This document shows, piece by piece, positions 11,808-63,195 of a stretch of 64,000 nucleotides of DNA. Location: positions 2,170,001 through 2,234,000 of the forward strand of contig NW_026611618.1 of NCBI RefSeq assembly GCF_028009165.1. Reading direction: 5' to 3'. Source of the DNA: Akanthomyces muscarius. Taxonomy: Eukaryota; Ascomycota; Sordariomycetes; Hypocreales; Cordycipitaceae. The translations under genes were made by a program, and so were the position numbers. Positions within the stretch are counted from its first letter, which is position 1. Each line of letters begins with the position of its first letter. The notes below the pieces were generated by a model. The model saw nothing but the letters and a program-made list of their open reading frames with translations, was not told the DNA's origin and ran no database searches.

Positions 11808-14136
11808 TCAGTGGATAATCTCCAACTCATCATCGTCATCCTCCATGGCAATCTGTCTGGTAGATAGATCCATACCCAGGCTCTCTCTCCCAGCCTCACG
11901 AACGCCCTTTTCCGTGACAAAGCGCGTCTTCTTACGGACTGGCGAGCGCGACTTTTTCGGCTCCCCGGAACCAGCTGTCTTCATGCTCGTCAGCTTCTCC
12001 CTCAGGTCACTGCCCCAGCCATATGCCGCCGATGACCTGTTGCTACCAGTGGTCACGACGCTGGACTGCGAGCTGCCCATGCGTTTCCGCTTCACTGGGC
12101 TCAAATGAATCTGTCGATCAGCTCCCCCTCGCAACAGATCCAGCGTAGATGCATCTGACGCAGAGTCTGCTGCGCTAGGCCCGGCTCCTGAGGCTTGGCT
12201 TCCACCTGCCTGGGAGTTTGTCGTAGCCTTGGCTCCTGCAAATTTCATGTATTCTCGTCCGGCAGCGCTTCCTACTTGCCCCAGCTTGTTCATGATTTCT
12301 CTCTCCTTTTCTTTCGCCTCCAGGTTCCGCTTCAAAAATTCAGCGCGTTCTTTCCGGTCTCCGAGACTAATGTCTTTCCCATCAATCAAGTCCGCTGAAC
12401 TCATTGAGCGCGCCGCAAACCAATGCGTCTGTGTCTCGCGATCAAAATTATTGTTGGCGTCTTTCCTTGGCTGCCATCGGCCACCTCCGTGTCCCGATCT
12501 TCCACCGCGGTTGTGGCCTCCGAAGCCACTGGTGTTCATCTCTATTCGTGAAGACTTCTGCTTCTTGACCGCTTCGTTTGAGTGATACTCGCAAAATTCT
12601 GTTCGCTTTTTGTTGACCCACGAACCACAGGGGTTGCCGTCTTTCTTGACAGATTTGCAGAATCCCAAATCACGAGCAATTCCAATTTCCAAAATGGTGT
12701 CCTCATCGGAATTAATGACAAGACTAAAACGCCCCGTATCGTGCCTGCCCGGCGGAGGTGGCATAATGTTCGGGTTCAGGATGGCAATAACAGTGCCTTC
12801 GCTTAGTTTCCAGAATCGTTCAAAACCGCTGTTGAATAGAAATAGATCAACCTCAAAACCAAGGTCCACTAGGGTCATGATCATATATTTGCCTCTGTCC
12901 TCGTCCTTATTCTTGCCTGTTCCTGGCTTATGTGAGCGAGGCTCCGATTTCTTCGCCAGAATACCAAACACGACAACATCTTGTTCGATATCGGGCAGAC
13001 TAAAGTCAGGTGCTTTGACAGCACGCAACAAGTCTTTGATGTTGTATGCTTTCTTGCCAGAAACGCCACGAGTGAGGACGTTGTGTGGGAGAATTCGCCG
13101 AGAGAGGTGAAAGTTAGAGTACAGCTCATACGACGGCTGCTCCTCTTCGGACGTAGGAGCTAGGGAAGAGGTTGCGCTGGCATTATTCACCTGTTCGTCG
13201 GTAGCGCCGTATGTAAGTTTGCCAGAGGGCGCTGTGCGGCTTCTTGTCAAAAATTCACCTGTCGATTTCTTGGTCCCTAGAACTTGGTCTCTGGAAAACG
13301 TAGGTGGTGCCAACGGGACATCTGGGATCTCTACAGCATCCTTTTTGTAAACATCCATCTCGTCCCTTCCAATCCCAAAGGCATTGGACCGGACGCTTCG
13401 GATCCTCGCTTGGCGCTCCTTGCGGAATGCCTCCTCCGTTCGTAGCCCTGTGAGGCGCTCATTGAAACTGCTTGCTTGCGGAGCTTCTGACGACGAGGTT
13501 GCGAGCGAGCCAACACCTGATCGCGAACCCACTGCACTGTGCAGACGTTTATGGCTTGGAGCCCGCTTCAGGGAAATGTCTTTGGCCGTCAAGCCCTTGT
13601 CAATACCCAAGAGCACCCGACTAGGCGATGTCTGTAGTTGCGGGGCTTGAAGCTTTCGGACTGGCGATGCGGGGACCTGGATGGCGTTTTGATTGCGTGC
13701 CGGGCTCTTGGGTATTTGTCGGCGGTCCAAGATGGAAGGCGAGGCTGATAGCGCAGTTCTCCCGCCGCTACTACTCCCGGCATCTGTTTTTCCTCTTGCA
13801 TTTTGCAGTTTCTTGAGTCGCAGCTTTGCTTGTATTTCCTGTAGCTTAAGCTGCAGAGTCTCCTCGTCATCTTCGTCTTCGTCGTCGCTAGCGCCTCGAA
13901 TTCCCAGTCCAATACCGGCAGAACTTGAAGGGCTCGAATAGAGGCGACTGCCACGAGAGGGCGAAGGGGTCGGAGAGGTTTGTAGCATTTCGCGGTATCG
14001 TTCCCGGCCTTTGGGGGTGCTAAGAAGCGCTTCGTGTGGGGATCGCGGAGGCCATTGCTGTCCCGGTTCTTTGCCGCCTGCGCTGGGTTAGTATCAGGTC
14101 GAAAAGACAGGAGGTAGTACACATACCTGGAGCCAT
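11808..14136 (-). CDS. mcm10: Replication initiation factor Mcm10
   Basis: Exon 1 is only 10 nt (14136-14127). A 49-bp intron with CTAAC follows, and exon 2 runs 14077-11808, giving 759 residues. The spliced start reads MAPGGKEPGQQWPP and continues through SPHEALLSTPKGRERYREML. The conserved core has an OB-fold with LSRRILPHNVLTRG, then FGILAKK, then VDLGFEVDLFLF. The Mcm10 zinc motif at about residue 475 shows Cys, Cys, Cys and His as CKSVKKDGNPC and FCEYH. Mcm10 loads with the CMG helicase and recruits Pol alpha at origins. The C-terminal third is basic and low-complexity. The gene is divergent from RNase H2B, 542 bp away. Confidence 0.93.
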
Positions 14137-49752: not shown

Positions 49753-52700
49753 TTAATATGCCCCATTCGTCATTTCATTGAGGATATCCCTCGTAATCAG
49801 CTTATCCTTGAGCAGCGCTCTCTCACCAATGCGCGCTGTCCTGGGCGATGGTCGCCGGTTTTCTTTTCCGGGTGCCGCTGCTGGAGGCTTCTTTGGCTTA
49901 TGGGCCTTCTTCTTGTGGCTCTGTGGCGACACAGCTTGCGTACCGCCCATGCTAGTCGCCTGCGTGCCGAGCTCTTCAAAATAGTGGCTATCGAGCGCAT
50001 CGGCAGGCAAATTGTAGATCCAGTCGCGCTGCTCCATCAGAGCAACAAAACGACTGAGCATGTTCTCCTTGTTGTTGACGTTGCTGCCGCTCAATGTGCT
50101 CTTGCTTCCAATCACAAGAAGCTTGGTTTTGGCACGGGTAAAGGCAACATTGATTCGCCTCCAGTCGCGAAGCAGTTCACCAATGTTGCACGCGTCGTTG
50201 CTGCGCACCAAGCTCAGCACAATGACCTCTTTGTCACGGCCTTGGAATCGATCAGTCGTGTGCATCTCCACGCCAGGGTAACCCCTTAGTTTGTCCTTCA
50301 GCAGAAATAACTGTGATCTGTAGTGCGTCATGACGCCGACTTCGCTCGCCGGAATGCCAACAGTCAGCAGACTCTCGACTAGCTGAGATACAATACGAAT
50401 CTCCGCTGAGTTGACGATGCGTTTCCCATGCGCCTCTTCGCGGACAATCGGCTTGATAGTGTCGGTGTTGACGAAACGGACGCGGGCTTCACTTTTCAGA
50501 AGATCATAAAGCCAGCATTGGGACGGCGCGGCGCCTTTGCAGAACGATCGAGGTGTTCCAGGAAGCAGCACGGTTGAAGCGTTGTGATGTCGCTGCGTGA
50601 GGGCCCTCATATTCGGCACATGAAGTTTCTTCTTTCGTAGTTGTTCCGTGCCACAAACGAGTTTGCCATCGTAGATAAGGGTGTTGCTCAGCGTCATAAT
50701 GTCTTCGCACATTCGATATTGATGTGCAAGGTTGACGACAGAATCAGGATGGCTATCTGAAAGCAATTTGAACAAGCTCACGTCAAGGCCACCTTGGCGT
50801 GCTGCTTCATTCTTCACAACTGGCGGGAGCTGATTGTGGTCGCCGACAAGTACAAATGTCTTCGCCATGCGAATCGGTCCTGCACAAATGGGCAGAGTAA
50901 TCTGAGAAGCTTCATCCACAATACAGTAGTCAAAGGCGCGCTCTTGGAAAACAGGATGATTGATGCCCAGGCAAGTGGTTGCGACAATTGGTGTACCATG
51001 CCAAGCCTCCTTGATTTCTTCGAAAGTCTTCATGGGCTGACCCGCGAGAGTTGCAAATTCCTGCACCTCGGGGTGGACCTTGGCCGGTGCGCCAAGCCGC
51101 AGAATCTTCATCTTGTCAGATTTGAGCTTCAACAGAATGTTGTCCACCGCAGTGTGTGTATGCGATGTAAGAAGAACACTCTTGCCCTGGGAAGTGAGAG
51201 CTCGAATAATGTGCGCAATTGTCGTAGTCTTTCCTGTTCCTGGCATGCCCAAGACTAGTGCATAGTCCTGTGCACTCATAACCTTTTCAATGGCTTTCTT
51301 CTGGTCGACGTTCAAGCTTTCTTGTGAGGAGATGGTGTACTGAGTTGGAATGTACTTGAACCGGGGGGTTTCGAGGTCCACGACGAGCTCTCTGATGCGT
51401 CGTGCTTCAGGGAATTGATTGCTCATGATCTGTACAATATTGTTCCTCACGGTAGCCATGCCATTACTGAACTCGTCTTTATCAAGGCGATATCGGATCG
51501 GTGCCTCTTTAATTCGCCCTTGGCTCTGCTCGGCGGAAGCGCCTTCCGGAGCGACTTCCATGATGCTGGCAAACACTTGATTATCAAGTTCATCGAAACC
51601 AGCTTGGCGGATTCGGCTGTTGTGCAGTCTCCTGTCAACAGCGACACTGATTCTTTGTTTGCGCGCCGCTGTGACGTACCCAATTGCCAAGGCGAAGTGG
51701 CCTTCCTCATCAGACACCACAATCGGCTCGCCAACAGCAATCTCGGATTCCAAGAAAGAGAACCCAGGCTCGAGGTTTCTTTTGGTAAAGGTGTAGTGAA
51801 AACGATTGATACGTGGCGTGTCAGAGTCTACCGAAGCAGTACCCTCTTCGATGATGACATCTGCGAAGCATCGCGACTTCTTTTCTCGCTCATTACTAGT
51901 CATTGTCCATAATTCTCGCTTTGTCTTTTGGCTTTCTTTCTCTTCCATTGTAAGTAGATTCTCCCATTTGACAAAAAACTCTTGATGGCGTGGAGTGAGG
52001 TGCTTCACAAGCTCGTCGAATTTTTCGTCCATTCCGCTGGACTCGCCGTCGCCGTCATCTGCCAGACGATGATATATAAAACAGGACGGTTTGGCGTAGC
52101 ACCGCCCGCACATGTGCTTGCTCTTCAGCATCGGCGGTAACTGAACACTTCGTTCGCGAATGTAGCCGGCGAGCTGGTTTCTTTGCATAATCATGTGGCG
52201 TAGCTCGTGTCGGACGGCGGGGATTCGCATAGTCTTTGAAGTCTCCATGTAGTAAAGAACCCCGTAGGCAATATCAATGTCATAACGATCCGATAGTAGC
52301 AAGGTATAGAGCGCGGTCTGTGCCATGTGGCTGCTGCTAGCATTTCGACCCGTCTTAACCTCGAATGGGACTGTTAATGTTCGTGATTGCTTGCCATCCG
52401 TCATGTTCACCTCAACGGTGGCATCAATGTTGCCTTTGAGGCCGTACATCGGTGACCACACGTGCTCTTCGACGTCGAGCAGTTTCGTTACAGCCATGAT
52501 AGCCTTTTTGCCGTTTCTGTCCTCCACAACCGCATCATTCTACCATGTGTCAGTAAAAGACTCTGGTCGGTAGAAGCATACTTACATTGGGTTGCGAGGA
52601 AACAAATGACTTGGCCCAGTAGCTGAGTTCCAACATTTTGGATTGCAGGTGCTCACGTGCGCTAGGCAGGCCGACCTTGATAGTGTATAGCTCTTCGACG

Positions 52701-55715: not shown

Positions 55716-56764
55716 CTATACGTCGTCCATCTGGCCGGCGGGTTCTTCGTCGTCGTCCTCGCCAAAACTGGCCACGGAGGACATGTCGTCGTCGTCTTCG
55801 CTCTCGGCGCCGGCCTCGTCGGCAGCGTCCTTGTTGGCGTACTTTTGCACGTATTCTATTTTTCGCTCGTTAGCAGGCACAGCTGAAACGCAGTCACAAA
55901 CGTACCCTTGACTTTGGCGTCGTAGCTTTTGGGCTCGCGAATCAGGAGAGCGGCGGCCTCGCCGTTGAGAGGATCCGTCGGGTTTGGGTATCGCAGGAGC
56001 TGCGGCAGGAAAACTTCGAAAATGTTAATCATGTCGAACATGGGTGACCACGTCTGATTGATGACGTCGAGGCAGACAGAGCCAGAGCTGGGCGCAGTCA
56101 AAGTCAGCGTATTCTCCAAGGCAGTAACTTGTTGAGAGGAAGCGAGGGCCACGTACAGCTCGTCAATGTTGGGGTGAAAGATTCGATTCACGAAACCGAT
56201 GCTGGGTGATTTGTACGGGTAGGCATCGGGCAGCTCGACATGGACTTTCCAGAGGCCACCTTCAAATGGCGCTGTTTTGCAATTGGTCAGCGAGCGGGCC
56301 ATGGCCAGATCGAGGATCTTTTTCTTACTCTCGGCAGGTCCCTTGAATCGGACAAAAAATTCTTGCCTTGAAATCGTGTTAGCATGGCTCGCGCGTTGCA
56401 CACGACGCCGAGTAGCACACGTACACTGCGAGATGGGTTAGCATTGGGCGGTGCGGGGTGTCGCGGGGTTATGGCGAGATCGTCTTACTGTTGTCGTTGA
56501 CCAGAGTGACCTCGTAGTCGCTCATGAGCCTGTTAATGTTAGTATCGCCGGCCGAGCCGTAAAAGGGTATATTCGATCGGTCTCGTACATCCTGCAGCTT
56601 GTTAGCACCAAGTCGCGTTCCTCGGGCACGGCTGCTGGGCAGTTTGTCCATACTTCATGACCTGGATGGACACCGGCTGGTTAGCAAAGCAGAATGAGAA
56701 TCGCAAGTTTCTATCAACGCAAAACACCTACATCAGTCTCGATACGCCTCCTGGGACTACTCAT
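55716..56764 (-). CDS. UBC8: Ubiquitin-conjugating enzyme E2 Ubc8 (UBE2H class)
   Basis: Nine exons give 186 residues: 56764-56732, 56661-56654, 56591-56589 (3 nt), 56529-56489, 56425 (1 nt), 56366-56329, 56271-56157, 56087-55906 and 55855-55716. The spliced start reads [12 protein letters not shown], then MKMLMSDYEV and NDNMQEFFV, matching the Ubc8 family end to end. The UBC core has [19 protein letters not shown] and the active-site Cys in [14 protein letters not shown]. The tail is acidic ([10 protein letters not shown], ending GQMDDV), as in yeast Ubc8. In yeast Ubc8 works with the GID/CTLH ligase to degrade gluconeogenic enzymes. The two micro-exons are needed to keep both frame and conserved residues. 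Confidence 0.93.
56425..56425 (-). other. UBC8: Single-nucleotide exon of ubc8
   Basis: Transcript base T, between a 63-nt intron (56488-56426; GTAAGA donor, GCTAAC branch point, CGCAG acceptor) and a 58-nt intron (56424-56367; GTACGT donor, GCTAAC, TTCAAG acceptor). The preceding exon ends with A and the next begins with G, so the three exons together spell the ATG of conserved NDNMQEF. Skipping it would shift the frame. Confidence 0.85.
56589..56591 (-). other. UBC8: Three-nucleotide exon of ubc8
   Basis: Transcript bases GAT, between a 62-nt intron (56653-56592; GTATGG donor, GCTAAC, CTGCAG acceptor) and a 59-nt intron (56588-56530; GTACGA donor, ACTAAC, AACAG acceptor). Inclusion gives VMKMLMSDYE; skipping leaves the frame open but loses one residue of a segment whose length is fixed in Ubc8 proteins. 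Confidence 0.8.
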
Positions 56765-58302
56765 TTTGGCGGTGTCGGTTCTATATGTCGTAGAGACGAA
56801 TGGTGGTTGTCGTGCGTGGTCGAGAGGACTCGTGAGCGCGGTGGCAGCGGGACCCTGCGACGTCACTGGGAAAGCGGCGGCTGTCTGTGGGCTTCCGGGG
56901 TTCAACGCGGCAAGTCGGAGGAGGGCAGGGCGACTGAGCGGGCTATCGACGGGGGAAGCTGCGGCAGGGTGCGAGAATGGCACTGGGGTCGGATTGGACT
57001 TTTGGAGCTGGCAGAACTAAAGAAGAAAAAATTGTATACGGGAGCGAGTATGTACAAGAGGAGAAAAGGCCAGTCTTGGACAGAGTGATGAGGGGCAGAG
57101 GCAGCGTACAGAGTCACGAGGCAGTTCAAGGTTGGGCGAGAATGAGACGGCGGCAATGCTACACCCACTGTAGGCACAGCGGGGTTGGGGCCTGGAGATG
57201 GGGTGGGCTTGCGGTGATTCGGCGCTGTGGATGCGCTGTGTCTTGTGGAAAGGTTGTACAGCAGTGGGTGCCAGCACTTGTAGTGGGCTCTGACTAGGTG
57301 CCCCAGTGCGCTGAGCTAAGATGGACTGGCTGACTCCATTGAGGCAAATGCCGCAGAATGATGCAGCAAATATGCAAGAAAAATTAATGCTATTAACAGT
57401 GAAGACGGCATGTCGTTTTTTTTTCTTTGAATTTTCAAGCTTCTTCCGTCTTTTCCCTTCAGCCATGCTTGCTGCAGAGGTAGATCCTGCTCAGATGTCT
57501 GTCAGTATCAAACAGTCATGATGATGCCTTGCACCGGTTCCTGTCTCGCCGCTGTGGCACTGTTTGCTTCGCTTGAAACAAAGAAAATTCAGTCTATTAC
57601 GCAATATCGTGGTCAGCATCAGCATCAGCATCCTGACCGTCGCCAGCCTCCAGTTCGTAAGCCTTGACGCTGATGGGTGTGCCGGACCGTCGCGCCTCAG
57701 CCACAGGTTACAGTTTATGGTTACGCCACAGCTGCAAGCACCACCCCAGTGCCTCGGTCCGGCGTCGTCGACACAGAGCCATTCCAAGACACCCCAACAA
57801 ATGGCCCGGGCTGCCCGGACAGGTGTGTGTGGGTGGCACGACTGCCCGTGTTGTGCAGGCTTATTACTCCGTACAGGCGACAGCTAGCCGGCGCCTGGGT
57901 GCTTGCAGCCTGTGTACCCCGGATCCGTTGACCTCAGGACAAGGCTGTGGCGCATGCCGAGGACCAGAGCAGGGAGTCCCCACGCGACCTCTCCTCTCAC
58001 CACCAAATCCAGAGATGCTCATTTCTACAATGTAAAAACCATCATGACCACCAATGTTAAAAACAATTTTTCCCGCCCCAGATCAGTACAATCCAACTCT
58101 TTTCCTTCTTCATTCCAAATCCACCAATCTTGCTTTTCTTGATTGAAATTTTACTTTGCAAGATTTTTTTTTATCTTTCAATAACTCCTACACTGTCCTG
58201 CATGCACTCATAGCCCATTACCCTTTTTTTTAATCCCCGTTGCCGACCGCTGCATATTCCATCCCACCTGCACCACACAGCACTGGTAGGTACCCAGACG
58301 TC
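56765..58302. promoter_or_regulatory. Divergent intergenic region, ubc8 and panB
   Basis: 1.5 kb between two starts. It becomes pyrimidine-rich before panB. Open frames here have no domain features. No RNA gene recognised. Confidence 0.5.
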
Positions 58303-59480
58303 ATGCCGGCGACCACCACTGCCCTGGCCAGATCTGGCGTCCGGTCCCTGGCACGTGCCACCCGCAGCACCAACACCACCAACACACTCTTGAACACATC
58401 TCTTCACCACCACGCTTCTTCTACCTTTCTCCTTACTTCCTTAGCATCAACATCTGCGCAGCTCCTCCGCCATGGCCACCAGGTGCGCTGCTCGTCCCAC
58501 TCGCCCATGGGCGCCGCCGCCGCCAACCCCCGCAAAAAGGTCACCATCAACACCCTGAGATCGCAGCACAAAAAGGGCGATCCCATTACCGTCCTTACGG
58601 CGCACGACTTTCCGAGTGCCATGGTTGCGGACCACGCTGGCATGGACATTGTCCTCGTAGGCGACAGCCTGGCCATGGTCGCCATGGGCATGGACGACAC
58701 GAGCGAGGTTCTGGTGGAAGAGATGCTCTTACACTGCCGCTCCGTCGCCCGTGCCACGAAATCCGCCTTTACCGTACGTATACACCTTGACACAATTTGC
58801 CTTTTTCTTAAACATTTCTTTTCAAAGACTTCTTCTTTCTTTATCAGTTCTTTTGCTAACATTCTCAGATTGGTGACATGCCCATGGGCAGCTATGAAAT
58901 CGCCCCCGAGCAGGCCCTTGGCACCGCTATCCGCTTCATCAAGGAGGGCCGCGTGCAGGGCGTCAAGCTCGAGGGCGGCCGCGAGATGGCGCCCACGATC
59001 CGCCGCATCACCGCCTCCGGCATCCCCGTCCTCGGCCACATCGGTCTCACCCCGCAGCGCCAAAACGCCCTCGGCGGCTTCCGCGTCCAGGGCAAGACGG
59101 CCGACGCCGCCATGGCCATCCTCGACGACGCCCTCGCCATCCAGGACGCCGGCTGCTTCGCCATGGTCCTCGAGGCCGTCCCGGAAGACGTCGCCGCCAT
59201 CATCACCCAGAAGCTCAAGGTCCCCACCATTGGCATCGGCGCCGGCGCCGGCTGCTCCGGCCAGGTCCTCGTCCAGACCGACATGACCGGCTACTTCCCG
59301 CCTGGCCGCTTCCTGCCCAAGTTCGTCAAGCAGTACGGCAACGTCTGGGCCGAGTCGATGCGCGCCATCGAGCAGTACAGGGACGAGGTCAAGAGCCGCC
59401 AGTACCCTGCGCCCGAGCACACGTACCCAGCTCCGAAGGCGGAGATTGAGGCCTTTGCCAACGCGGCCGAGAAGCTTTGA
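58303..59480 (+). CDS. panB: Ketopantoate hydroxymethyltransferase
   Basis: Two exons (58303-58773 and 58869-59480, 95-bp intron with GCTAAC) give 360 residues. The N-terminus (MPATTTALARSGVRSLARATR) is basic and hydroxylated, a likely mitochondrial presequence. The TIM-barrel core has VTIN, LTAHDFPSAMVAD, VLVGDSLAMVAMGMDDT, GDMPMGSYE, VKLEGGREMAP, HIGLTPQ, LEAVPEDVAA and PTIGIGAGAGCSGQVLV. These cover the Mg2+ and ketopantoate sites. It transfers a one-carbon unit from methylenetetrahydrofolate to 2-oxoisovalerate, the first committed step to pantothenate and CoA. It is convergent with atg12, 161 bp between stops. Confidence 0.95.
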
Positions 59481-61175: not shown

Positions 61176-63195
61176 TTAGTATTCTTCAGAATCCATGGAT
61201 GCAAATCGGGGCGGACGCTCCAGCTGGGACAGCAGAGCATCCAGATCGGTCCAATTGTCGTTGTTTTCAGCAAACTTGCGGTGCTTGCGCGACAAAATGT
61301 GCTCATCAAAGTCTCGGAACTTGTCCTGGCAGTTCTCGCAGTAACCAGGTTTAAGGTCCTTCTTGCTCTTAAGCTGCGACGTGGGTTTTCTTTCCCGAGT
61401 CTCGGCAGCTCTTTGGCTGTCATCCTCTCCAGTCGCCACGACCTTTGAGTTCTGTCGGCTCATGGTAGTCGATCTGCTAGATGCGACGTCCATAGAGATT
61501 TCTCCCACACGCCGCGAGCTCAAGTCATGAGAGGCCGGAGTAGCTTTCTGAAGCACCTTTCTTTGCAGACCGTGAACTTCCTTACTCGTGCCAGCCTTTG
61601 CTCCGTTGATTCCAGAAGTTGACGAAATCATCTGCGAGCGAATTGCGGATGTGATGTTGGAGGCTTGCAGGCCTGACGCGACGGGTTCGCCGGCAAACTG
61701 GCGTCCCATATCCGCACGGCTAATGAATGCATTTTGCGGACGCATCTCGCTTTGCTTTCCAAGAGCAGCCTTGGCAGGATTGAAGACTTCTGTCGCGGAA
61801 GCGCCGCGTAGTCTGTTATGGCCATCTTCCATCTCGCCCAGGGATCGTTTTCCCGTTACTGGCTTGGGCAAAGGGTTCTCCGGAGGCTGCAGAATAGTGA
61901 CTTGCTCCTCTCGCTTGACAACACGAGCCTTTTCACGCTCGCGGGTCTTGCGGTGGTCTCGCTCAGGCAAATCAAGCTCCTCAACAAAAGGGCAGCGGCC
62001 GTTACCGACACTACGGAATTGAGGCCAATCGCCATCAGTCTTGTTGACAACCTTGGCATATTCACGGACCATGATGGGCTTTTGCTTTTCGTCCATGTCC
62101 CAAACGTAAATGTAAGGACCCTTGAACAAAGCGAGCTCCCTGTTCATAGCTGTGGGGTCACGGTCCGAAGGTCCATGGATGCGTTCGTTGTGAAGCAGCT
62201 GCAGCAGATTGGGCTCGTGGGCTCCCTTGTTGGCGCCATATTGGCTTCGGGCGCTGGCAACGCGTGATCCATATGAAGCTTGCTGTGGTTCTGATTCCAG
62301 CAGTACAGAGAGCATAGTCTGAAACTTGTCCAGCGACCAGATCTTCTTGCCCATGTCACGAGCCTTGTGCAAAACATCGTTATTGCGGACACCTCGGCTG
62401 CGTCTGATGAGATCATCTTGCTGTTGTGATTGCATAGGTGCTTGGCGGAATTCGAAGAGAAGCTTTCTGCGGGCATCACTGGGTCTATCCAGCAACAGAG
62501 AAGGGTTGATGGTCTGAGGTTGCTCCTCAGCATGGCCGCCTTGCCCGTGATCTATAGCGTCTGCTTCATCCGTGTTGGACTTTTCGACGGGGATCGATCG
62601 CGTGGTAACGACGTGCGTTACGTCAATCGAGAAGAAGGGCTCTTGGCGCTGCAGGTGATCGTCAGTAAGCGAGAGAATGAAATAAATGGATAGGAGAGGT
62701 AGCAAAACGTACAGCGCCGAGATATGCGACTCTCTTGATGAGCTTTGCTCGAACGTCATCCGGTATGCTTTCGAAGTAAAAGACCATCTTGGGAAACTTG
62801 GCACGGTGGTGTCTTTTCCACACTTCCTTTTCATTTTCAGCATCATGAGGCTTGGACGTGGGAACAGGTCTAGCTTGTCGATCACGGACGACGGGACGCG
62901 TGATGGCGGCAGCAGTGCCCCGGGACATGGTCTGGGAGCGTGGCAGCTTCGAGGGAGAGCGGATAACGCGTGCAGAGCCATTATCAAGAGCCTGCTTCTT
63001 GGCAGGGGGAGCTTGGCCATAAGGTTCTTCACGTTGAATCGTGGCGTGGGAGCGTTTCTGCTTTGCGTAGGCAGCTAGAGCGGAAGCTCCACGAAGCGGC
63101 GAGTTGGCGACATTAGGGTTGTTCGAGAGAGGAACTCGTCGCGAAGCCATGGCCGCAATGGAAGCTGGCGTTGGAGATAGAGATACGGTTGCCAT
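61176..63195 (-). CDS. DBF4: Dbf4-type regulatory subunit of Cdc7 kinase
   Basis: Two exons (63195-62713 and 62648-61176, 64-bp intron, phase 0) give 651 residues. Motif N is not sharply visible; the region HHRAKFPKMVFYFESIP begins a BRCT-like segment that continues across the intron with PFFSIDVTHVVTTRSIP. KGPYIYVWDMDEKQKPIMVREY fits motif M, which contacts Cdc7. The C-terminal Dbf4 zinc finger (motif C, near residue 590) is PGYCENCQDKF with DEHILSRKHRKFA. Dbf4 activates Cdc7 to phosphorylate the MCM helicase at origins; the Aspergillus counterpart is NimO. The open frame also runs back to 63032 in a different frame, which is a shadow. Confidence 0.9.

Follow-up and report, generated by a model that had tools for sequence, protein, structure and literature searches.

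Does the T at position 56425 of a fungal ubc8 gene form an exon by itself? The question arises in a 64,000-nt window (the whole stretch of DNA analysed), on the minus strand of which ubc8 runs from an ATG at 56764 to a stop at 55716. With the T included, the gene model has nine coding exons (33, 8, 3, 41, 1, 38, 115, 182 and 140 nt from 5' to 3') and eight GT-AG introns, and the resulting coding sequence of 561 nt encodes a predicted protein of 186 aa with no internal stop. The introns are 50 to 70 nt long (n = 8), and all eight contain a CTRAC branch sequence (CTAAC or CTGAC), the last base of which, itself counted, lies 9 to 19 nt from the intron end. The features are as follows, with the basis of each in brackets.

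55716..56764, minus strand: ubc8, predicted Ubc8/UBE2H-type ubiquitin-conjugating enzyme, ATG at 56764 to stop at 55716 (assembly, PDB-chain alignment, Pfam)
56732..56764, minus strand: exon 1, 33 nt (assembly)
56662..56731, minus strand: intron 1, 70 nt, GTAGGT...CTAAC...CCAG (assembly)
56654..56661, minus strand: exon 2, predicted 8-nt microexon GTCATGAA (assembly, enumeration and shuffles)
56592..56653, minus strand: intron 2, 62 nt, GTATGG...CTAAC...GCAG (assembly)
56589..56591, minus strand: exon 3, predicted 3-nt microexon GAT, supplying residue x of VMKxLMSD, between K and L (assembly, enumeration)
56530..56588, minus strand: intron 3, 59 nt, GTACGA...CTAAC...ACAG (assembly)
56489..56529, minus strand: exon 4, 41 nt, last base the A of the split ATG codon (assembly)
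56426..56488, minus strand: intron 4, 63 nt, GTAAGA...GCTAAC...GCAG (assembly)
56425..56425, minus strand: exon 5, predicted single-nucleotide exon T, middle base of the Met29 codon (assembly, enumerations)
56367..56424, minus strand: intron 5, 58 nt, GTACGT...GCTAAC...CAAG (assembly)
56329..56366, minus strand: exon 6, 38 nt, first base the G of the split ATG codon (assembly)
56362..56366, minus strand: GCAAG, alternative downstream AG giving the in-frame single-intron product NDNKFF (enumerations)
56272..56328, minus strand: intron 6, 57 nt, branch sequence CTGAC (assembly)
56157..56271, minus strand: exon 7, 115 nt (assembly)
56088..56156, minus strand: intron 7, 69 nt, branch sequence CTGAC (assembly)
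55906..56087, minus strand: exon 8, 182 nt, with the Cys of SGSVCLD (assembly, translation)
55856..55905, minus strand: intron 8, 50 nt, branch sequence CTAAC (assembly)
55716..55855, minus strand: exon 9, 140 nt, acidic C-terminal tail and stop (assembly)

A domain search of the 64-kb window found three DNA-replication ORFs in addition to ubc8, and an ORF of another kind near it:

49753..52527, minus strand: ORF with Dna2/AAA helicase domains (domain search)
61176..63032, minus strand: ORF with Dbf4-type domains, Dfp1/Him1 and zf-DBF (domain search)
11808..13988, minus strand: ORF with an Mcm10-type domain (domain search)
58240..59286, plus strand: ORF with a ketopantoate hydroxymethyltransferase domain (domain search)

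By alignment, the ubc8 product is assigned to the Ubc8/UBE2H-type E2 enzymes, the UBE2H-type chains matching it best over the entire core. Among the best 60 of 283 matches in a search of PDB chains, the five highest were UBE2H-type chains (187 to 239 bits), and the next E2s reached at most 97 bits. The alignment with 8pmq_E, which we take to be yeast Ubc8, was gapless over residues 1-178 of the query (E value, 4e-70), and chains named E2 H came next; 2z5d and 8pjn are presumably the human (UBE2H) chains. The translation contains both a Pfam UQ_con domain (132.7 bits) and the cysteine of the SGSVCLD stretch, which we take, by E2 family, to be the active-site Cys. No second close copy of ubc8 was found among the best candidates in the 36.2-Mb, 12-contig genome (15 matches scored); three of these matches were exons of ubc8 itself, and the other 12 were partial matches with 30-46% identity. 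A search of the genome with the 5.8S rRNA family gave no match. None of four candidate stretches in viral contigs was a eukaryotic relative; in prokaryote contigs, 3 of 90 candidates were obtained, each from an archaeal or bacterial record and with 29-35% identity, and these were not used.

The original prediction placed an exon end at the A of position 56489, the start of the next exon (G CAA GAA TTT) at 56366, and introns of 63 and 58 nt with a T between them. Base-by-base comparison confirmed each of these points: T56425 is flanked by two complete introns, 56488-56426 (63 nt) and 56424-56367 (58 nt). Joining exon 4, the T and exon 6 yields ...NDN-M-QEF..., which aligns without a gap to yeast Ubc8. 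Omission of the T leads to loss of the frame and a stop after 68 aa, so the claim that the flanking exons cannot be joined directly stood, but it overlooked a single in-frame intron from 56488 to 56362. Retention of intron 4 leads to a stop after 34 aa and retention of intron 5 to a stop after 43 aa. Inclusion of T56425 thus restores both the reading frame and the family sequence, although a gapped in-frame alternative also exists. The genomic letters at the edges of exons 4 and 6 are, as assembled, ACAACAGTAAG and TTTCAAGGCAAG, and the junction predicted in cDNA across 56529-56329 is GACAACATGCAAGAA / ATGCAAGAA.

Every one- and two-intron GT-AG solution across 56529-56329 was enumerated, with introns of at least 40 nt and the upstream 3-nt exon assumed. 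Of 110 combinations, 22 were in frame and free of stops, and the solution with the 1-nt exon ranked first against yeast Ubc8 (score, 109; next, 97). In a wider enumeration, donors could be GT or GC, acceptors were AG, introns could be as short as 38 nt, and a product could take one or two splicing steps, nested, stwintron-like routes included. Among its 131 distinct in-frame products, NDNMQEF was given by the product with the 1-nt exon alone, in either order of intron removal. The model with a 1-nt exon is the best-supported model for ubc8, and T56425 is very probably a constitutive single-nucleotide exon between two introns that are recognized by intron definition and removed in succession. 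The assembled letters show directly where the bases and splice signals of this model lie, that the frame is kept and how the protein aligns; from these, we infer that T56425 is used in RNA and would be included constitutively.

The gapped in-frame alternative is a single intron of 127 nt (56488-56362) with an acceptor 5 nt downstream, in which case T56425 would be intronic; its product, NDNKFFVRF, two residues shorter and with the cDNA junction GACAACAAATTTTTTGTC, might also be a minor isoform alongside the product with the 1-nt exon. This intron keeps the frame and has a GTAAGA donor, a CAAG acceptor and a branch sequence 17 nt from its end. For scoring against the five UBE2H-type PDB chains, the competing proteins were truncated after residue 156 to remove the C-terminal tail. 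The scores in bits for the 1-nt exon and the 127-nt intron, respectively, were 230.9 and 218.3 for 8pmq (a loss of 12.6 against yeast Ubc8), 225.0 and 224.1 for 2z5d, 219.3 and 218.4 for 8pjn, 209.0 and 200.7 for 2onu (a loss of 8.3), and 187.1 and 180.5 for 1yf9 (a loss of 6.6). The loss was 0.9 bits against human UBE2H, and 7.3 bits against Pfam UQ_con (125.4 compared to 132.7). The model with the 1-nt exon scored higher than both of its rivals at this exon against all five chains and was the highest of four protein models against four of the five.

The 127-nt intron would also remove M-Q-E, the E (or D) of which is present in five of the five chains. It is about twice as long as the 50- to 70-nt introns of ubc8, and it leaves without explanation an internal set of branch point, acceptor, T and donor that appeared in 0 (strict) or 8 (lenient) of 20,000 shuffled gaps. 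We consider it unlikely. As the original prediction stated, A, T and G together restore the Met of NDNMQEF, but the further claim that this Met is conserved in the family did not hold: among the five chains, it is found in yeast Ubc8 only, and its place is taken by L in both human chains and by T and V in the remaining two. The two human chains align with a one-residue gap near Met29, which indicates that length in this region is not rigid. Given the 0.9-bit margin of the 1-nt exon against each human chain and the restriction of the Met to yeast Ubc8, the protein evidence for the exon can be regarded as good but short of absolute.

The solution that ranked second in the one- and two-intron enumeration has a 7-nt exon, TGTACGT, in place of the single T. 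It is in frame and yields NDNMYVQEF; it inserts two residues, scores 7.0 bits lower against yeast Ubc8, and depends on a weak donor, GTGCTA, located 6 nt from the strong GTACGT, which makes it exceedingly improbable. A missing base in the assembly would be another explanation of the frame break, as a single T inserted at the edge of either exon 4 or exon 6 would presumably restore the ATG and leave the 122-nt gap as one ordinary intron. Because codons are in frame up to the junction on both sides (NDN plus A; G plus QEFF), such an error is only possible at the junction itself. It would need to fall precisely on the splice junction, where there is no homopolymer run, and the internal splice signals would then be coincidence. 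We therefore regard an assembly error as very improbable. An error in the T6 homopolymer of exon 6 was ruled out: QE, ahead of the run, shares its frame with FFVRF, beyond it, and a run downstream of in-frame QE codons is not the cause of the frame break.

Two adjacent introns in a gene of filamentous type also bring to mind stwintrons, which are known in such fungi and in which one intron lies inside a splice element of another, external one, so that removal takes two steps and no exon lies between. Of all the one- and two-step routes, no nested one led to NDNMQEF, and the gapless product needs two tandem introns around the T. In addition, [D1,2] stwintrons begin with two Gs (PMC5639578), whereas the ubc8 pair begins with GT after A. 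The genomic sequence contains both intron 4 and intron 5 in complete form, and the chance that they form a stwintron seems negligible. Tandem duplication was also rejected as the origin of the pair, as introns 4 and 5 were no more similar to each other than shuffled sequences (198 of 500 shuffles reached their score); none of the 28 pairs of ubc8 introns stood out in similarity (lowest, 28 of 500 shuffles).

The frequency with which such a configuration arises by chance was evaluated with patterns that were all chosen after the locus had been seen. The 122-nt gap between exons 4 and 6 was shuffled 20,000 times; only its interior was dinucleotide-shuffled, and the first 6 and last 25 nt stayed unchanged. 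The strict set for a 1-nt exon (CTAAC, YAG, one base, GTANG) appeared in 0 of the 20,000 shuffles and the lenient set in 8; any frame-restoring exon of up to 25 nt appeared in 4 (strict) and 46 (lenient). The lenient set was also scanned, for exon lengths of 0 to 15 nt, on both strands of 264 kb of sequence comprising the 64-kb window and 20 sampled 10-kb stretches. A YAG requirement misses the 1-nt exon because its downstream acceptor is AAG; for the scan, the last acceptor was relaxed from YAG to HAG and the spacing from branch to AG from 4-22 to 4-24 nt, again after the locus had been seen. Four matches were found at three acceptors, all in ubc8: exons of 1, 3 and 8 nt, and a 5-nt reading of the acceptor of the 1-nt exon. 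The 200 kb sampled outside the window contained none. However, the totals for the 264 kb were not above those of a reversed-sequence control, either with a GTRNG donor (4 forward compared to 6 reversed) or with a bare GT donor (64 compared to 108), so that only the location of the forward matches, all in ubc8, supports the 1-nt exon. A strict two-branch-point pattern was found once in the 36.2-Mb genome, at ubc8, and the reversed control also contained one. By these tests, the configuration is rare and three cases of it lie in one gene, which does not imply that it is actually used.

The original prediction made no mention of the other two very short exons of ubc8. The gene seems to need both a 3-nt exon (56591-56589) and an 8-nt exon (56661-56654) in addition to the single base. 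With the 1-nt exon assumed, 496 solutions kept the frame with no more than three introns from the ATG to the end of exon 4; the best was a three-intron solution with the 8-nt and 3-nt exons (score, 127), followed by one with a score of 115, and the solution that skips the GAT scored 114. In 20,000 shuffles of the 124-nt gap, a 3-nt exon appeared once under the strict set and 18 times under the lenient set, and an exon of any multiple of three up to 24 nt appeared 8 and 110 times, respectively. The splice signals of the 3-nt exon are of the same kind as those of the 1-nt exon. Inclusion of GAT gave higher scores than skipping against four of the five PDB chains; the opposite was the case for 1yf9 (187.1 compared to 189.1 bits, a difference of 2.0), and the gain against Pfam UQ_con was just 0.7 bits. 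Because omission of GAT also preserves the frame, and in view of the 1yf9 result and the small Pfam gain, protein evidence fixes the 3-nt exon less firmly than it does the 1-nt exon. Predicted cDNA with all three microexons reads GTCATGAAGATGCTCATG and GACAACATGCAAGAATTT, and that with the 3-nt exon skipped reads GTCATGAAGCTCATG.

Five of the eight ubc8 introns are located within the first 86 coding bases (56764-56366, minus strand). The density of this 5' pile-up would fit 3'-biased intron loss. A cluster of 8-, 3- and 1-nt exons is unusual. It is conceivable, though somewhat doubtful, that the three form a constitutive cluster with a set order of removal, in which the intron-5 donor becomes stronger once intron 4 has been excised.

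The original prediction had proposed intron definition with sequential splicing for the single base, and this was a reasonable suggestion. Introns 4 and 5 are each short and would be self-sufficient, each with its own donor, GCTAAC branch point and AG, so that intron definition could recognize each of them. Across the one-base exon, the intron-4 acceptor and the intron-5 donor would overlap sterically; we infer that they could not be bound simultaneously, which would make removal of the introns successive. Removal of intron 4 first may be favored but would not be required. The consensus for U1 and the donor is CAG|GTAAGT. The donor of intron 5 matches this consensus at five of nine positions before removal of intron 4 and at seven of nine after it, because the exon bases CA take the place of the acceptor AG; CA-T before the donor would be the better match to U1 and might favor the intron-4-first order. 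Either order of removal would yield A-T-G, Met29 and an intact Ubc8/UBE2H E2 core. Intron definition with sequential removal is the most likely mechanism, possibly with intron 4 first. The same mechanism has been proposed for Arabidopsis APC11 (PMC4674806), and intron definition is reported for filamentous ascomycetes in work on stwintrons (PMC5639578). In a potato invertase, the second intron was reported to be lost first (PMC4674806), an order that would count against the intron-4-first order assumed here.

Single-nucleotide exons are already on record, and the suggestion that ubc8 was new beyond plant APC11 fails. A single-nucleotide exon was described in February 2026 for CYP621A, a cytochrome P450 of Fusarium (Nelson and Syed 2026, PMC12940212); it is common to 20 Fusarium orthologues (24 genes in the discussion) and is supported by 18 SRA reads from two species, and its authors call it rarely expressed (PMC12940212). 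As in ubc8, the CYP621A exon lies between fungal introns, forms the middle base of a codon, is essential to the frame and was found via an uninterrupted homologue. It is a G in AG-G-GT, whereas the predicted ubc8 exon is a T, and ubc8 is an E2 gene that carries 3-nt and 8-nt exons as well. The 1-nt exon of APC11 is constitutive, and its authors favor intron definition, with the introns removed successively (Guo and Liu 2015, PMC4674806). APC11 thus resembles ubc8 in its exon and in the proposed mechanism and is, by chance, another gene of the ubiquitin system; unlike ubc8, it is a plant gene with a 422-nt intronic stretch and proof from cDNA and mutant constructs (PMC4674806). A 1-nt microexon like that of ubc8 is conserved in VPS55 of land plants and, in the plants studied, is absent from the reference annotations (2022; PMC8831610); in contrast to ubc8, this is a plant exon that some lineages include alternatively, with evidence from RNA-seq and RT-PCR (PMC8831610). 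According to the same paper, soybean APC11 reads were not mapped correctly by STAR unless the 1-nt exon was supplied as annotation (PMC8831610).

Other systems resemble ubc8 less closely. Stwintrons of Pezizomycotina, like the ubc8 pair, involve neighboring U2 introns, consecutive removal and intron definition, but no exonic base lies between their introns, whereas in ubc8 a base is kept and both introns are complete alone (PMC5639578, PMC6616335). Xlr2 of Trichoderma virens also has a microexon in a filamentous fungus, but that microexon is regulated by glucose and switches between two protein forms (PMC11121469), whereas the ubc8 exon is taken to be constitutive. A one-base exon is reported in placozoan mitochondrial cox1 (PMC5436844), and the term also appears in the fungal mitochondrial literature. 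A literature search, which most subscription papers fell outside, found no published 1-nt exon or microexon for ubc8. Because 1-nt exons have been published for APC11, VPS55 and CYP621A, ubc8 joins a known class; it would be a further gene with such an exon and, as far as the search shows, apparently the second fungal nuclear one.

Automatic annotation would probably get ubc8 wrong. If confirmed, T56425 would be among the very few known nuclear single-nucleotide exons, in the gene of a conserved enzyme. With exons of 8, 3 and 1 nt stacked in one short gene, ubc8 would be a compact substrate for tests of intron definition and splicing order, and the cluster, if it is conserved, would offer a natural system in which to study how the spliceosome copes with exons without room for exon definition.
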